This document shows positions 34,557 to 42,897 of a stretch of DNA of 64,000 nt, piece after piece (position 1 is the stretch's first letter; every line of letters begins with the position of its first letter). Made by a program: the position numbers and the translations under genes. The notes beneath the pieces were generated by a model that was given only the letters and a program-made list of their open reading frames with translations, ran no database searches and was not told the origin of the DNA. Origin of the DNA: Sporosarcina jeotgali (GTDB lineage Bacteria > Bacillota > Bacilli > Bacillales_A > Planococcaceae); NCBI RefSeq assembly GCF_033304595.1, contig NZ_CP116341.1:1965001-2029000 (forward strand), given 5' to 3'.

Positions 34557-36413
34557 TCATTCTGCAAGTACCGATTCACTGACAACAATTCGATTTTTAC
34601 CGCCTGATTTTGCCGAGTAGAGCGCTTCGTCTGTATTCTGAAATAGTTGCTGATAGGTTTCCTGATTAGTCGATGGTGCCCACACACTCACACCGATCGA
34701 AACAGTAACGGAAGGATTCGTCAGTTGGGGCATTTTTAGAAGCAGCTGTTTTGCAAGCCGTTTACCTTCAATAAGAGTTGCTCCCGGCAAGTAAACCGCG
34801 AATTCTTCTCCTCCCCACCGTCCTGCTATATCCTGATCCGTAACGCTCGATTTCAGAACGTCAGCGGTTTGTTTTAGTACAGAATCTCCGATAGCATGAC
34901 CAAATTGGTCGTTCACCTGTTTAAAGTCATCCACGTCCAATAGAAGGAAGGCACCGCCGATTCCTTTTTTAAATGCCAAAGACATATGCCGGTCCAAATA
35001 GCCTCTCGCATATAAGCCGGTCATTTGATCTTTGTTCGCAAGGTTTTGCAACTTCTCACGGAGCGCGGAATTAGAAAGTGCGAGTGAGGAATGGCTAATA
35101 ATCGACCTGACGAGCTTGAAATCTTCAAAAGTAAAATGATATTTTTCTGTATGCATCAGCAAAGTATATCCTGCTATTTTTTCAGAAATGACTATAGGAG
35201 CAATCATTAGTGAACGATATGGGGTGAAGCCCTCAATGTCCTCGTTCTTCAAATCTGCAATAAATACAGCTCCATTTTCCTTTCTCACACGGCTTTCAGC
35301 ATAGTCTAGATACCGGTTTCCTGCCTGGGTTTGGAAATAATCGGTTGATTCTTTCGATAGCACAGGCGCTTGCTGATCTTTAAAATACACAAATGCTACT
35401 TCTTCAGGGTCAAATGTTTCGTTAAGACGAGTATTAATGTACGTGATCATTTCCTCAAAAGTGAGCCGCTCTGTAAGTTTTTTCGATACTTCATTGACCA
35501 ATTGCAATTCGTGAATCATTCGATGGGACTGATCATACAAGCTTGTATTTTCAATCGCGTGTCCGGCACTTTCGGAAATATTCCGAACGAATTCCTTCTG
35601 CATTTGTGAAAATACATAATGACCAGGAGCTGTGAGCTGAAGAATGCCATACGTACCTTGCATTCCTTTCACGGGCGCGCTTAAGATTTCGGTATCTTTT
35701 CCTGCACCTTTTCCAAGCGCCAGCTCTCCGGAAAGAAAAGCTTCAACTGTTGACGGCAGCTCATTGGAATAATCGAACAATCGATATGAACAAGACGAAT
35801 CCAGTTGCTCTTGTGAAAGAATTAAATCCACTTGAATCGGATCCAGATTTCTAGAAATCGTTGACACCAGCTGGGAATGGATGACCCCTAATTCCATAGT
35901 TGAATTGAAGGTTTTTGTCGCTTCAAGCAGGCTTTGATAATTTTGGGAATGCTTGTAGAGCGATTGATATCCTTTAATGGTTTCAATAAGTCTGCCCATT
36001 AGCAGCTGGAACTTCTTGAAAAACTCAGAGGATGCAAAAGAATGCCACTCATCCGTCGATTTCACCAGAATCATCGCGACAGGTTCTCTCTTTTCGTTTC
36101 GAATCATAAGCGTATCGTCTGCAAAGTCCAGCGCATCCTCTGTTTCCGAAGAGGTTGCAGTCAGCATAGGTGACGTTAACGTTTCCACGACACCCACTCC
36201 GTCACGGGTATCTTGTTTAAGAAGAGAAGCTGCAGAATAGAAATGATTGTCTTCATATAGAAAGAACTCTATTTTCGTAACATTAAAGTTGATTTTAAAA
36301 AGATTTTCAAACAAGCTGATGAATTCACGGTCATTCAGGTTCTGCATTACACCTAACATTAAATCGAGTAAGTTGCTTTTAATCGATTCATACATTTGCT
36401 CATTTGTTTTCAT
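34557..36413 (-). CDS. dgcP: GAF-GGDEF diguanylate cyclase (DgcP/YtrP-like)
   Basis: A 618-residue soluble protein with GAF-like regions (about 30-290 and 300-440) and a C-terminal GGDEF domain (about 455-610). The active site is intact (RWGGEEFAVYLPG, about residue 536), with ANKDQMTGLYARGYLDRH and LLLDVDDFKQVNDQFGH, so it should make c-di-GMP. The inhibitory-site RxxD is absent (TDQD at that position). The ATG at 36411-36413 is 4 bases after GAGGGTGG; a start 18 bases upstream overlaps that site. It sits between rpsD and the msrC region as ytrP does in B. subtilis. Confidence 0.88.
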   Translation of the reverse strand: MKTNEQMYESIKSNLLDLMLGVMQNLNDREFISLFENLFKINFNVTKIEFFLYEDNHFYSAASLLKQDTRDGVGVVETLTSPMLTATSSETEDALDFADDTLMIRNEKREPVAMILVKSTDEWHSFASSEFFKKFQLLMGRLIETIKGYQSLYKHSQNYQSLLEATKTFNSTMELGVIHSQLVSTISRNLDPIQVDLILSQEQLDSSCSYRLFDYSNELPSTVEAFLSGELALGKGAGKDTEILSAPVKGMQGTYGILQLTAPGHYVFSQMQKEFVRNISESAGHAIENTSLYDQSHRMIHELQLVNEVSKKLTERLTFEEMITYINTRLNETFDPEEVAFVYFKDQQAPVLSKESTDYFQTQAGNRYLDYAESRVRKENGAVFIADLKNEDIEGFTPYRSLMIAPIVISEKIAGYTLLMHTEKYHFTFEDFKLVRSIISHSSLALSNSALREKLQNLANKDQMTGLYARGYLDRHMSLAFKKGIGGAFLLLDVDDFKQVNDQFGHAIGDSVLKQTADVLKSSVTDQDIAGRWGGEEFAVYLPGATLIEGKRLAKQLLLKMPQLTNPSVTVSIGVSVWAPSTNQETYQQLFQNTDEALYSAKSGGKNRIVVSESVLAE

Positions 36414-36776: not shown

Positions 36777-37379
36777 ATGGCTCGTTATACAGGTCCATCT
36801 TGGAAACAATCTCGTCGTCTTGGTATCTCACTAAGCGGCACTGGTAAAGAAATCGAAAAGCGTCCTTACGCTCCAGGTCAACACGGCCCGAATCAGCGTA
36901 AAAAACTTTCTGAATACGGTCTTCAACAACAAGAGAAACAAAAACTTCGCTTCATGTACGGTGTGAATGAGCGTCAGTTCCGCACATTGTTCAACAAAGC
37001 AGGTAAAATGCAAGGAATCCACGGTGAGAACTTCATGATCCTTCTTGAAACTCGCTTGGACAACATCGTTTACCGTCTTGGTCTTGCTCGCACACGTCGT
37101 GCAGCTCGCCAGCTTGTAAACCACGGTCACATCCTTGTTGACGGTAAGCGCGTAGATATCCCTTCTTACAGCGTGAAGCCAGGTCAAGAGATTTCTCTTC
37201 GTGAAAAATCACAAAACCTTGACATCGTTAACGAATCAATCGAAATCAACAGCTATGTACCTGAGTTCGTAGCGTTCAATGCTGACACTAAAGTCGGTTC
37301 ATTCGTACGCCTTCCAGAACGCAGCGAGCTTTCTGCTGAAATCAACGAAGCTCTTATCGTTGAATTCTACTCTCGTTAA
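36777..37379 (+). CDS. rpsD: 30S ribosomal protein S4
   Basis: A primary rRNA-binding protein of the small subunit, needed for early 30S assembly and accuracy. The 200 residues start [16 protein letters not shown] and hold the S4 domain at about 92-155 ([28 protein letters not shown] split over the RNA-binding helices). The RBS AGAGGAGGAG is strong. It is a single gene, transcribed toward tyrS but on the opposite strand, with a strong terminator and the repeat array in between. Confidence 0.98.
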
Positions 37380-37391
37380 TAATGAGTTTAC

Positions 37392-37424
37392 ATCCCTTCC
37401 GGAGTTTCCGGAAGGGATTTTTTT
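37392..37424 (+). terminator. Terminator of rpsD
   Basis: ATCCCTTCCGGA pairs with TCCGGAAGGGAT around a 3-base loop, then seven T. Confidence 0.93.
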
Positions 37425-37463: not shown

Positions 37464-37680
37464 GTTATGATCACTTTATTGCAGGTTATGAGCGCTTTCC
37501 GCGCGTTATGAGCGCTTCTCCATGGTTATGATCACTTTCCGCGGTTTATGAGCGCTTCTCCATGGTTATGATCACTTTTCACGATTTATGAGCGCTTCTC
37601 ATTGGTTATGATCACTTTCCGCGCGTTATGAGCGCTTCCGCTGAGTTATGAGCTTTTCCTAGGTGATGATCATTCTCACT
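37464..37680. repeat. 20-bp repeat array, tract 1 (11 units)
   Basis: Direct units of 20 bp (the first 21, the last two 18) share TTATGA at the start and CRCTT in the middle. Two unit types mostly alternate: GTTATGATCACTTTCCGCGG (with TGATCA and, across the junction, CCGCGG) and TTTATGAGCGCTTCTCCATG (with AGCGCT and CCATGG). All are in the same orientation. In-frame stop codons occur in every reading frame and the period is not a multiple of three, so the tract does not encode a protein. It starts 40 bases after the rpsD terminator. Confidence 0.93.
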
Positions 37681-37867
37681 AGATTCCGCGATAAGATACC
37701 TTCTCCCACCCATATCCAAACTCGCGACCAATCCTTCTTTTCCTAATTTTAGAAACCAAGACTAATTGCTGTGCTTCGCTTCGCTGCGCATTCAGGGATA
37801 GATAAATGGAGTAGTTAGGATTTCCACTTCCTCCTCGATTGTTCACAAGGTGAAGACCATTTTTCAT
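37679..37867 (-). other. Spacer between the two repeat tracts, with a doubtful 62-codon reading frame
   Basis: A unique-sequence stretch of about 190 bases splits the repeat array. It holds an open frame of 62 codons on the minus strand (starting MKNGLHLVNNRGGSG, with SLNAQRSEAQQLVLVSKIRK in the middle) that fills the spacer almost exactly. There is no ribosome-binding site before its ATG and I do not recognise a domain. It may be a remnant of a gene, part of a mobile repeat unit, or chance. Confidence 0.3.
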
Positions 37868-37870
37868 TGA

Positions 37871-38170
37871 TTTATGATCGTTTCTCTATTGTTATGATCA
37901 CTTTTCACGATTTATGAGCGCTTCCCCATGGTTATGATCACTTTCCGCGGTTTATGAGCGCTTCTCCATGGTTATGATCACTTTCCGCGATTTATGTGCG
38001 CTTCCCCATGGTTATGATCACTTTCCGCGATTTATGTGCGTTTCTCCATGGTTATGAGCACTTTCCGCGATTTATGAGCGCTTCACCATGGTTATGATCA
38101 CTTTTCGCGCGTTATGAGCGCTCCCACATAGTTATGATCACTTCCCCCGGGTTATGAGCCCTTGCCCCAA
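37871..38170. repeat. 20-bp repeat array, tract 2 (15 units, exact period)
   Basis: Fifteen direct units of exactly 20 bp run from 37871 to 38170 with no spacer. The A type (TTATGATCACTTTCCGCG) and B type (TTATGAGCGCTTCTCCAT) alternate almost strictly, forming 40-bp higher-order units with four palindromic hexamers (TGATCA, CCGCGG, AGCGCT, CCATGG) 8-12 bases apart. Base changes fall mostly in the second half of the units; TTATG is kept in all fifteen. It ends at the tyrS terminator. Confidence 0.95.
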
Positions 38171-38172
38171 TA

Positions 38173-38207
38173 AAAAAAGAGAAGGAAATATCTCCTTCTC
38201 TCTTTTT
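38173..38207 (-). terminator. Terminator of tyrS
   Basis: GAGAAGGA pairs with TCCTTCTC around six bases, with A-run and T-run on the two sides. It lies between the tyrS stop and the repeat array. Confidence 0.85.
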
Positions 38208-38217
38208 CCTATTCAAC

Positions 38218-39483
<1,266 letters not shown>

Positions 39484-39849: not shown

Positions 39850-42800
39850 TTGACAAAACAGGACAAAAAACGTGTTGAAGAACTTGAAGATAAATTCGAA
39901 GCGATCAAGAAAACCAAATGGGCAAAAAATACCCGGATTGCCTCTGGCGTCATCTGGAATCTCTTTTTGCTTTTCTTCGTTATCGGTTTGACGTTAACGG
40001 TTTTCGGCGCTTCCGTAGGGGCGGGTTACTTTGCCTCACTTGTTGAAAAGGAACCTCTTCGTTCCAAACAGGAAATGCGAGATGAAATTTTAAGTTATGA
40101 AGAAACATCCGAAATCTATACAAATGGAAAGTATTTAAGGAAAGTACGAGCTGATATTGACCGCAAAGAGGTCAAACTCGAGGACGTCTCCCCTTACGTC
40201 ATCAACGCCGTGTACGCGACGGAAGATGAGTACTTTAATACACATAACGGGATTGTTCCTAAAGCGGTTTTCCGCGGACTTTTCCAGGACGTCACCAACT
40301 CAGACAGTCAAACGGGCGGATCCACACTAACACAGCAACTTATTAAAAATCAGATTCTAACGAACGAAATCTCATACGAACGTAAAGCAAAGGAACTCTT
40401 GCTCGCGATGCGTTTAGAGCACTTTATGACGAAAGAAGAGATTCTGGAAGCCTATTTGAATATCATTCCTTACGGACGAAATTCAAACGGCGGTAACGTC
40501 GCAGGAATTGAAGCGGCTGCAGAAGGTATTTTCAATAAGACTGCAAAAGAACTGAATCTGGCTCAAGCTGCTTATATCGCGGGGATTCCACAAGCTCCGT
40601 TTGCTTATACACCATTCTATAATGGCTCAAATGGCTTGAAAGACGAAGAAGGGCTGAAACCCGGCGTGAATCGGATGAAAACTGTATTATTCCGCATGAA
40701 AGAAACGGAATATATTACAGAGAAAGAATATAATGAAGCCATCGCCTACGATATCACAAAAGATTTCAGAACTGCTGCACCTGCACCTAAGAGCAGAGAT
40801 GAATACTTAACTGATGAAATACAGCGCAGTACCATCGCTATTCTAGCTGACAAAATTGCAGAAGAAGATGGAATTGACAAAGACCGGTTAAAAGAAGATA
40901 AGAAACTGAATGAGAAATATAGTATTTTAGCAGAACGTTCCATGCGAAATGATGGCTTCCGAATTCATTCAACTGTTGACTTGCAATTGTACAATGCGAT
41001 GAATGATGTTTCAGAAAACTTTTCACAATATGGATTCACGACTGCTGTGACAGCAACTAACAAACAAACCGGCGAGAAGAAAACGGAGAAATTACCCGTT
41101 CAAGTCGGAGCCACACTGCTGGACAACAAGACAGGGAAAATTTTAGCCTTTGTCGGCGGCCGGGATCATGAAATAGAAGCGACAAATCATGCAACACAGA
41201 CTACCCGTCAGCCTGGTTCAACGATTAAACCTTTACTTGTATATGCACCTGCTATTGAATTTGGTTTAATTGGTGCAGGAAGTCCTGTCGTTGATGTGAA
41301 ATTCCGAGCTGGCTCGTATGCTCCAGCCAACTTTATACCGACACAAGAGCTGGGCATCATTTCTGCCCGTCAAGCGCTGACCACTTCACAGAACTTAGCT
41401 GCACTCCGTCTTTATCAGCAAATGATTGATCGGCGGCCTGCAGAGTTCCTGGAAAAAATGGGTTATTCAAGTTTAGTAAAACATGACTACACAAACCTTT
41501 CCGCTGCACTCGGCGGTTTGGAATACGGCGGAACAGTTCAAGAAAACACAAGTGCATATTCCACACTCGCTAATAGCGGTCAACACGTAGAACCGTACAT
41601 TATCGAGAAAATCGAAGATCGCTCAGGTAAAGTTGTTTATCAGCACAAAGTCGAGCCTGTGCAGGTATTCAGCCCGCAAACTGCGTACATCGTAACAGAT
41701 ATGCTTCGTGATGTTGCTACTAGTGGTACTGCTAAAGTAATGAAAAGCAAACTGAATTTCAATGTGGATATTGCAGCTAAAAGTGGGACAACCAATGGAT
41801 TCAGCGATGCCTGGCTGCTAGGGTATAACCCTAACGTTTCTCTAGGTGTATGGCTTGGTTATAAGTATCAGACTAAATCACTTGAGGGACCAGGAAACGC
41901 ACAATATGGTACTGCAAGCTCACGTACAAATGCTTTGTATGCTCAATTCATGAATGCCATCAACCAGGCCCGTCCTGAAACAGTTGGTCAAGGCGTACGC
42001 TTCCAGCAGCCAAAAGGTGTTGTAAACCGCTCATTCTGCGGAATCTCCGGACTAGCACCGTCAGCTGCATGTTCAGCTGCTGGATTAGTCCGTTCTGATC
42101 TATTCAATGCAAATGTCATGCTTCCTAACAAACCGGATGACAGCATCATTTCTTCAGCTTCGGTATCTGTTAAAGGCACACGATATGCTGCATTGCCTTC
42201 GACACCTTCAGAATTCATTACTGCTGGCGGCGTTGGGGTCAATCAAGAATTTATCAAACGGATGCTCGGACCTCTTGGCGGGGATGCATCTAAGTTATTC
42301 CCGATAAAATCATCCTTTGCATCTCGCGTCGTATCAGGAGCGATCTTCCCTGCGGATGGTGCAGCGCCTGCAAGTGTAAGTGCATCGGCAAATGGATCTG
42401 TACTAACATGGAGTGCGTCACCTTCAAATGATGTTATTGGGTATTATGTCTACAATGGCGGAACACGTGTAGGGACAATCAGAGATGGTCAGTCACTTTC
42501 ATTCCCAATCGGAAGTGGCACTTATACAGTACGAGCTGTAGATATTACGGGGTTAACTTCTGCTCCTTCGAACGCAGTTACGATAGCCGCGGAAACACCT
42601 AAACCAGAAGAAAAACCGGACGACTCAACAAATGGATCAGGAGATGGTGACGGTAATACAGGAACGACACCGCCTGATTCGAATACTGGTGCAGATAACA
42701 AACCGAAACCGCCTGCTAACGGAGGCGGCGATACTAAACCGAAACCGCCTGCTAATGGTGGTGGAGATGGGAAACCGAAGCCGCCTGCTAACGGCGGCGA

Positions 42801-42897
42801 TGGGAAACCAAAACCGCCCGCTAACGGAGGAGGCGACGGGAAACCGAAGCCGCCTGCTAACGGCGGCGATGGTGAGGGTGATTCAGATGGTGACTAA
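39850..42897 (+). CDS. Class A penicillin-binding protein with FN3 domain and KPKPPANGG repeat tail
   Basis: A 1015-residue bifunctional peptidoglycan synthase. A short cytoplasmic region and one membrane segment (about 31-62) come first. The GT51 glycosyltransferase domain (about 80-260) has ATEDEYFNTHNGI with the catalytic Glu and GGSTLTQQLIKNQ. The transpeptidase domain (about 370-660) has the nucleophile in QPGSTIKPLL (about 456), SQN, and AKSGTTNGF (about 644). A fibronectin type III-like module lies at about 835-915. The Pro/Gly-rich tail has five copies of KPKPPANGG(G)D. The start is TTG, 6 bases after AGGAGGG. A class A PBP at this place between tyrS and acsA is not seen in B. subtilis. 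Confidence 0.95.
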   Translation: MTKQDKKRVEELEDKFEAIKKTKWAKNTRIASGVIWNLFLLFFVIGLTLTVFGASVGAGYFASLVEKEPLRSKQEMRDEILSYEETSEIYTNGKYLRKVRADIDRKEVKLEDVSPYVINAVYATEDEYFNTHNGIVPKAVFRGLFQDVTNSDSQTGGSTLTQQLIKNQILTNEISYERKAKELLLAMRLEHFMTKEEILEAYLNIIPYGRNSNGGNVAGIEAAAEGIFNKTAKELNLAQAAYIAGIPQAPFAYTPFYNGSNGLKDEEGLKPGVNRMKTVLFRMKETEYITEKEYNEAIAYDITKDFRTAAPAPKSRDEYLTDEIQRSTIAILADKIAEEDGIDKDRLKEDKKLNEKYSILAERSMRNDGFRIHSTVDLQLYNAMNDVSENFSQYGFTTAVTATNKQTGEKKTEKLPVQVGATLLDNKTGKILAFVGGRDHEIEATNHATQTTRQPGSTIKPLLVYAPAIEFGLIGAGSPVVDVKFRAGSYAPANFIPTQELGIISARQALTTSQNLAALRLYQQMIDRRPAEFLEKMGYSSLVKHDYTNLSAALGGLEYGGTVQENTSAYSTLANSGQHVEPYIIEKIEDRSGKVVYQHKVEPVQVFSPQTAYIVTDMLRDVATSGTAKVMKSKLNFNVDIAAKSGTTNGFSDAWLLGYNPNVSLGVWLGYKYQTKSLEGPGNAQYGTASSRTNALYAQFMNAINQARPETVGQGVRFQQPKGVVNRSFCGISGLAPSAACSAAGLVRSDLFNANVMLPNKPDDSIISSASVSVKGTRYAALPSTPSEFITAGGVGVNQEFIKRMLGPLGGDASKLFPIKSSFASRVVSGAIFPADGAAPASVSASANGSVLTWSASPSNDVIGYYVYNGGTRVGTIRDGQSLSFPIGSGTYTVRAVDITGLTSAPSNAVTIAAETPKPEEKPDDSTNGSGDGDGNTGTTPPDSNTGADNKPKPPANGGGDTKPKPPANGGGDGKPKPPANGGDGKPKPPANGGGDGKPKPPANGGDGEGDSDGD
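42700..42873 (+). repeat. Tandem 33/36-bp repeats in the PBP C-terminal tail
   Basis: Five in-frame copies (42700, 42736, 42772, 42805 and 42841) encode KPKPPANGGGDT, KPKPPANGGGDG, KPKPPANGGDG, KPKPPANGGGDG and KPKPPANGGDG. Third positions differ between copies. Copy number can change in steps of 11-12 residues without a frameshift. Confidence 0.95.

Follow-up and report, generated by a model that had tools for sequence, protein, structure and literature searches.

The gap between rpsD and tyrS of Sporosarcina jeotgali is filled with short tandem repeats, and the question raised by this locus is whether these are a local product of slippage or sites at which a protein might act on the chromosome, both of which had been put forward in a preliminary description. 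The window, i.e., the whole stretch of 64,000 nucleotides that was analysed, corresponds to positions 1965001-2029000 of the single-contig genome of 3,203,634 bases, and in window coordinates the locus is laid out as follows:

36777..37379, plus strand: rpsD (ribosomal protein S4), left flank, convergent (Pfam Ribosomal_S4 and S4)
37392..37418, plus strand: intrinsic-terminator-like hairpin, 12 bases 3' of rpsD and followed by a T tract (hairpin scan, sequence)
37465..37683 (genome 2002465-2002683), plus strand: array tract 1, 11 units of TTATGA[TG]C[AG] and linker
37684..37871: spacer of 188 bp between both tracts
37872..38171 (genome 2002872-2003171), plus strand: array tract 2, 15 units
38178..38201: hairpin resembling a terminator, on the tyrS side, preceded by an A tract and followed by a T-rich tract (hairpin scan, sequence)
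38218..39483, minus strand: tyrS (tyrosyl-tRNA synthetase), right flank, convergent (Pfam tRNA-synt_1b and SYY_C-terminal)

All 26 direct units (11 + 15) lie on the plus strand, each consisting of a TTATGA[TG]C[AG] core and an 11-bp linker, and the steps from unit to unit are 21 bp, eight times 20 bp and 18 bp in tract 1 and 14 times 20 bp in tract 2. The preliminary description, according to which 26 units of almost always 20 bp occupy the gap in two tracts, is borne out by unit chaining and by comparison with shuffled sequence: allowing for at most one mismatch, TTATGAKCRCTT matches the window 25 times, with 23 of the matches inside the gap, as compared to a mean of 1.7 and a maximum of 5 in 100 shuffles. 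Its coordinates are accurate to one or two bases, the spacer that it put at 190 bp measures 188 bp, and Pfam agrees on both flanking genes. Periods of 20 and 40 bp are detected in the array by TRF, and the alternation of two unit types (TGATCA / AGCGCT) described before is real but imperfect. The hexamers CCGCGG and CCATGG, also pointed out there, recur in the window array and in the 230-kb array but are not general among the other arrays displayed, and the palindromic hexamers in the linkers are a local feature.

About 45 bp separate the rpsD-side hairpin from the start of the array. As the hairpin scan around the array yielded two hairpins as compared to an average of 1.0 in shuffles, the reality of these hairpins rests on their place and form and not on their count. 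No promoter-like site was detected by a simple consensus search of the kilobase around the array, and between window positions 36400 and 39600 no Rfam family matched at the gathering threshold. The 188-bp spacer contains CGCGACCAATC at 37723 and GCTTCGC at 37773, both of which are enriched near other arrays. Elsewhere in the window, a GGDEF gene lies on the opposite side of rpsD (Pfam), and positions 42700-42872 form an in-frame tandem repeat, the proline/lysine/glycine-rich tail at the C terminus of a penicillin-binding protein (39850-42897).

With respect to the rest of the chromosome, a two-unit pattern (at most two mismatches) gave 186 matches on one strand and 188 on the other, the reversed control giving none, and R1, a sequence-only model of 52 positions built from 55 stretches, matched the S. 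jeotgali genome 205 times. The list of arrays comprises the loci among the 150 matches listed of these 205, together with an array at 193 kb found by pattern; units were chained in 31 stretches around the listed places, and two echo rows were removed (the minus-strand rows 830282 and 830604, which are echoes of the plus-strand array 830290). The preliminary description had held that absence of the units elsewhere in the genome would speak for a local slippage product; in fact, at least 47 intergenic arrays of TTATGA[TG]C[AG] units were found. Since weaker arrays may have been missed, this number is to be taken as a minimum, and the lower limit of 8 units described below applies to the listed arrays.

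In these arrays, the 550 steps comprise 506 of exactly 20 bp and 29 of 21 bp, and 53 of the 4527 positions of inner units depart from the 9-bp core. Exactly 8 units occur in 18 of the 47 arrays and up to 31 in the largest, and only two arrays have fewer than 8 (5 and 7 units, paired at 1902 kb). The units of each array lie on one strand, with stray opposite matches at the edges of a few as judged by both-strand clustering, and have an AT skew of about -0.3. Many arrays have been homogenised in 40-bp steps, and blocks of array and spacer are duplicated, five times at 2837-2838 kb and twice at 2608 and 2776 kb.

A comparison was possible with G201, a second single-contig genome of the genus, in which array places were grouped by eye. 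Its 26 arrays contain 7 units in nine, 8 in twelve, 9 in four and 11 in one case, and of the 180 steps, 147 measure 20 bp and 30 measure 21 bp, 24 of the latter being the first or last interval. Among inner units, 8 of 1386 positions depart from TTATGA[TG]C[AG], i.e., the core is kept to 99.4%, a value flattered by the counting of units with at most two mismatches in the nine core positions, and the core is usually preceded by a T. Linker positions 14-19 carry 0.04-0.63 bit each, and positions 10-13 and 20 carry 0.55-1.3 bit and are thus informative too, so that the contrast between core and linker is graded. In the eight-unit arrays (n = 12), inner linkers have an identity of 0.52 within and 0.51 between arrays, and therefore the core is not preserved by recent copying. 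Shared ancestry of the unit order was likewise rejected for these twelve, units of the same rank having an identity of 0.48 as compared to 0.46 for any other unit. Taken together, both identities argue that the twelve arrays are neither freshly expanded nor fresh copies. In the TTATGA[TG]C[AG] core as such, the T or G at position 7 is associated with the A or G at position 9 (T-A 370, G-G 295, G-A 104, T-G 15).

Several further sequences accompany the arrays. Directly 5' of the first unit, TGTGAAG is found in 14 of the 26 G201 arrays (L083, L136-L164) and in none of the 47 of S. jeotgali, from which it follows that many G201 arrays have a defined 5' boundary. GCTTCGC or GCGAAGC occurs within 350 bp of 24 of the 47 S. 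jeotgali arrays, which is 7.8 times the rate in the remaining, mostly coding fetched DNA. A possible companion block near arrays consists of a GCTTCGC..GCGAAGC hairpin followed by CCAATTAAATCTTGG..GATTGGT; it is found at 37684-37871 of the window and in other array flanks, e.g., at genome positions 2837145-2838592, 2775839 and 2608283, and its hairpin part is matched over 25 bases at one G201 array (2716241). The unit strand carries an upstream TTRATTKG-type motif in 19 of the 47 S. jeotgali arrays, as compared to 7-9 for the three other settings of side and strand, and in 1 of the 26 G201 arrays.

By comparing the proteins flanking the 47 S. jeotgali arrays (94 queries) with the array loci of other species it is evident that some arrays reside between the same genes. 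Both flanking genes are common to an S. jeotgali and a G201 array in six cases (640, 910, 1645, 2779, 2972 and 3039 kb) and one flank in three more (230, 283 and 2747 kb), with 26 G201 arrays compared and, on a rough estimate, fewer than one case expected by chance; weak flank matches (602350, 2252623 and 2260709) and the 2779-kb match repeated via the 2776-kb arrays were not counted as shared. Flanks are also held in common with arrays in G116, G170, G188, G176 and G154. The orientation of the array relative to the genes is identical in the 15 cross-species pairs set side by side (strands read by hand), and in the three pairs with equal unit counts, positions 1-8 agree in 263 of 288 cells, taking T/G at position 7 as a difference, and the linkers in 211 of 396. 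The 3039-kb array has exactly 8 units in both S. jeotgali and G201. Compared with the close relative G188, the 1645-kb array has recognisable ends and a middle that has been turned over, with 15 against 19 units. Judged by these sequence comparisons, part of the array positions is old. As to the random loss in relatives that the preliminary description had considered telling, some arrays do stand between the same genes in other species, although presence across the genus is patchy.

It might be assumed that the arrays are a dispersed satellite, i.e., a selfish or neutral tandem repeat that spreads through intergenic regions with a replication strand bias and expands by slippage, with no function for the host. 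In line with this are the homogenisation of many S. jeotgali arrays (5 to 31 units), the duplicated array and spacer blocks, the differing copy numbers of orthologous arrays and the patchy presence in the genus, and some mobile elements are reported to target the lagging-strand template (PMC6006769). Slippage, as suggested before, does act on the arrays, as is apparent from these copy-number differences and from the 40-bp steps of homogenisation. However, the G201 arrays are not homogenised and yet preserve core and pitch, some arrays hold their position and orientation between species despite differing linkers, and the window array has no match in plasmid or phage records (BLAST, low-complexity filter on), so that an origin from either was rejected. 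The satellite reading is therefore considered rather unlikely, albeit the best surviving of the alternatives. The sole match in a viral contig (L171, IMG/VR) is a short TTATGAACCC decamer repeat, which fits the search pattern and is a different repeat.

Among gaps of 100-1500 bp between frames of at least 90 codons, with controls taken from the same fetched DNA, none of the 37 with an S. jeotgali array is divergent as compared to 23 of 68 array-free gaps (p = 1e-5); the gene context of G201 was excluded, being ORF-based and including one or more false divergent calls (2591631, for which the homologues indicate a convergent gap). With the origins set by dnaA (3183771 in S. jeotgali, 2396245 in G201) and the termini at the opposite point, TTATGA lies on the plus strand in all 27 left-arm arrays of S. 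jeotgali and on the minus strand in 16 of the 20 right-arm arrays. After neighbours have been collapsed, 29 of 33 loci follow replication (p = 6e-6), the leading strand mostly carrying GMTCATAA, and four are oriented against it (193, 326, 830 and 1490 kb). Of the 18 arrays in convergent gaps, for which the direction of the genes has no bearing, 17 follow replication (p = 4e-4), two of the arrays sharing the window gap. In G201 the polarity is weak, with 31 of 50 collapsed (p = 0.09) and 37 of 59 uncollapsed loci (p = 0.03). The polarity could also reflect the A/T skew of the units instead of a function in replication.

An insulator role has been proposed for BIME/gyrase sites, and 160 bp, the length of eight units, is close to the footprint of gyrase. 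Accordingly, the arrays might be conceived as insulators at transcription ends, in the form of polar roadblocks or supercoil sinks behind terminators that stop read-through or absorb supercoils. Besides this agreement in size, the avoidance of divergent gaps and the position of the window array between two terminator-like hairpins are in favour of such insulators. However, array orientation is not linked to transcription: the four codirectional arrays by genes opposing replication (602, 910, 2252 and 3034 kb) all follow replication instead. In addition, at 602 and 830 kb the array abuts the start of a gene with its 3' end, and an insulator function hence appears still less probable than a satellite.

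The third alternative, that the repeats act after transcription as processed small RNAs, as a protein sponge or as a CRISPR-like array without cas genes, is the least probable of the three. In a published case, a non-CRISPR repeat array next to a GGDEF gene undergoes transcription and processing (PMC10910872), and in the window a GGDEF gene is found beyond rpsD; however, the part of that source which describes the locus names an MFS gene and neither rpsD nor tyrS, and the arrays considered here occur at dozens of sites. The excess of fold stability in 24 S. jeotgali arrays is mild (mean z of -2.5 for the minus and -1.6 for the plus strand, with minima of -6.0 and -4.4) and may be accounted for by pairing between the palindromic cores of different units. 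The location of the window array between terminator-like hairpins, the lack of a promoter-like site in its kilobase and of an Rfam family likewise argue against transcribed arrays. In agreement with the preliminary description, a CRISPR array and a coding sequence were both rejected, the first because the 11-bp linkers follow one graded consensus and are not unique spacers, the second because the period is not a multiple of three and TTATGA...TCATAA puts a stop on each strand. Clusters of DnaA boxes are an improbable reading as well, TTAT...CAC resembling a DnaA box only if bases are inserted.

In other species, the same gap may hold arrays with another core. Among 30 chosen genomes of the genus, rpsD was found in 29, and in 11 of these tyrS lies at most 1.5 kb away. 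The rpsD–tyrS gap contains TTATGAKC units in G176; CGCGC[AG][CT]A units of about 21 bp within a 102-bp higher-order repeat in G116, G170 and G151; TATCGGACA units of 21 bp in G200 and G201; a CCTAGTGACC/GGTCACTAGG array in both orientations with a 52-bp period in G185 (L179); and, by inspection, five 21-bp units in G166. No array is evident in this gap in G154, G140 and G152. As judged from their sequences, TTTATCGGACACTTT and TTTATGATCACTTT appear to be two forms of the same unit.

Across the genus, R1 matches 40 of 68 genomes at E <= 0.001, and since only 14 of the 68 have at least 35 matches, the genus can do without the TTATGA[TG]C[AG] core. Of 18 best-match loci from other species, 17 contain a TTATGAKC array, with 4 to 36 units and 224 of 233 steps of 20 bp; arrays of 4 and 5 units occur in G085 and G162. 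The CGCGC pair pattern is found in 19 of the 68 genomes (control, 2), and several genomes, e.g., G151, have both cores (TTATGAKC and CGCGC). In CGCGC arrays, 145 of 222 steps measure 21 bp and 41 measure 20 bp. The TATCGGACA pair pattern occurs in 11 of 200 genomes of the family and its control in 8, and single matches are therefore meaningless. Runs are found at eight TATCGGACA loci in the genera g10 and g12 (L238, L242-L248), five of which comprise exactly 5 units at a 21-bp pitch with differing linkers, the remaining loci having 6 units or being degenerate; judging by their similar flanks, L243, L245 and L247 appear to represent a single locus in three species of the same genus. The preliminary description had suggested, with hesitation, that related repeats exist elsewhere in the Planococcaceae, and this was thus correct: arrays are spread across Sporosarcina, and 21-bp TATCGGACA runs resembling them are found in further genera of the family.

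The CGCGC core, too, is oriented. Among the matches listed in G180 (40 of 40), G193 (about 100 of 132) and G195 (10 of 28), with loci grouped by eye, CGCGC is on the leading strand at 20 of 24 loci (p = 0.0015). In the rpsD–tyrS gap of G116, G170 and G151, however, the CGCGC units are found on the sense strand of rpsD, which would oppose this strand rule if rpsD is located on the same arm in those genomes.

The combination of a core repeated at a 20-bp pitch, drifting linkers and partly old positions asks for a protein that reads each core along with its neighbours from one side of the helix. We therefore favour, with a probability of roughly 45%, the reading that the window array belongs to a set of dozens of docking sites on the chromosome for a candidate sequence-specific DNA-binding protein with a role in replication, segregation or folding of the chromosome. 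Each 20-bp unit would represent one site, its TTATGA[TG]C[AG] core being the part recognised, and two helical turns between sites would place all of them on the same side of the DNA. A group of some eight proteins (160 bp) might then assemble cooperatively into a wrapped or filamentous complex, by analogy with ParR on plasmid parC, and the modal 8 sites would correspond to the minimal cooperative complex. As the arrays are located in non-divergent gaps at gene ends and mostly follow the direction of replication, the role of the complex would most likely be in replication, segregation or folding, where a polar mark helps. Changes of the core among species would be expected if the protein changes its specificity.

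That the array might bind a protein, or be a chromosome-organising or replication-related site, had been suggested in the preliminary description; phasing, protected core and genome-wide recurrence and, in S. jeotgali, replication polarity favour these first two of its readings, and such a site is accordingly to be regarded as putative. On the other hand, no par-like genes adjoin the window array, and many S. jeotgali arrays have expanded far beyond 8 units, up to 31, which both argue against docking sites.

Beyond the single species, we tentatively consider a chromosome-maintenance system of the Planococcaceae, in which diversifying DNA-binding proteins might act on dozens of polar phased arrays, commonly of 8 x 20 bp or 5 x 21 bp, that mark the direction of replication along both arms, with the core swapped between species and the pitch and the rpsD–tyrS location kept. 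If the arrays are docking sites, the S. jeotgali chromosome keeps about 600 phased binding sites for one unnamed protein, and they would be, to our knowledge, the first chromosomal counterpart of the direct-repeat centromeres of plasmids. The different cores found in one gap would offer a ready test of the coevolution of protein and site. If the arrays are a satellite instead, a bacterial satellite can hold its core and 20-bp pitch at shared sites across species, which would be equally unexpected.

Amongst known systems, the closest in build are the plasmid partition sites bound by ParR (parC) and omega (parS), which likewise are runs of direct repeats, 20 bp long for the ParR of pSK41 and numbering 7, 9 or 10 iterons in parS of pSM19035, and whose complexes are helical or wrapped and fall into families with mutually exclusive sites, ParR families not binding each other's parC (PMC9426499, PMC5016525); the repeats of pSK41 are given as 10 bp instead in PMC4911067. 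With units of 20 bp and a modal count of 8, the arrays resemble the tandem direct repeats of some 10-20 bp that are typical of parC. However, plasmid sites usually lie by their partition genes, whereas the arrays are found at dozens of chromosomal loci in replication orientation, the window array being flanked by rpsD and tyrS and not by a par operon.

KOPS 8-mers occur in isolation and are scattered over the chromosome. The translocase guide sequences KOPS and SRS are comparable to the arrays, which run from origin to terminus on both arms in S. jeotgali (29 of 33 loci) and weakly so in G201 (31 of 50), in being short motifs that on either arm point from the origin towards the terminus (for KOPS, PMC2680272); unlike the 8-bp KOPS, the arrays present about eight phased sites each in intergenic gaps.

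Interspersed intergenic repeats offer a further comparison. The STAR elements of staphylococci are intergenic direct repeats of variable spacing and copy number whose function is not known, but they consist of a 14-bp GC-rich repeat with copies at least 40 bp apart and with locations differing between species, and the part of the source dealing with them describes neither phasing nor replication polarity (PMC3532100); their consensus T(G/A/T)TGTTG(G/T)GGCCC(C/A) is not that of the TTATGA[TG]C[AG] core. REP and BIME elements likewise occur outside genes in high copy number and form composite structures to which proteins bind (PMC2817692), but REPs are palindromes in alternating orientation, in contrast to the direct units on one strand of each array. 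The TAACTGA repeats of Beggiatoaceae form many intergenic sets of short direct repeats; unlike the 20-bp phased units in gaps at gene ends, however, these are heptamers, present in the main genome in 2-6 copies and for the most part immediately 5' of start codons (PMC4679880).

A description of TTATGA[TG]C[AG] arrays was not found in the open-licence literature. Interspersed intergenic direct repeats as such are known from STAR, TAACTGA and REP, none of which, as far as these sources describe them, combines this pitch and unit count with shared positions and polarity, and there is a real chance that the arrays may represent a new system.
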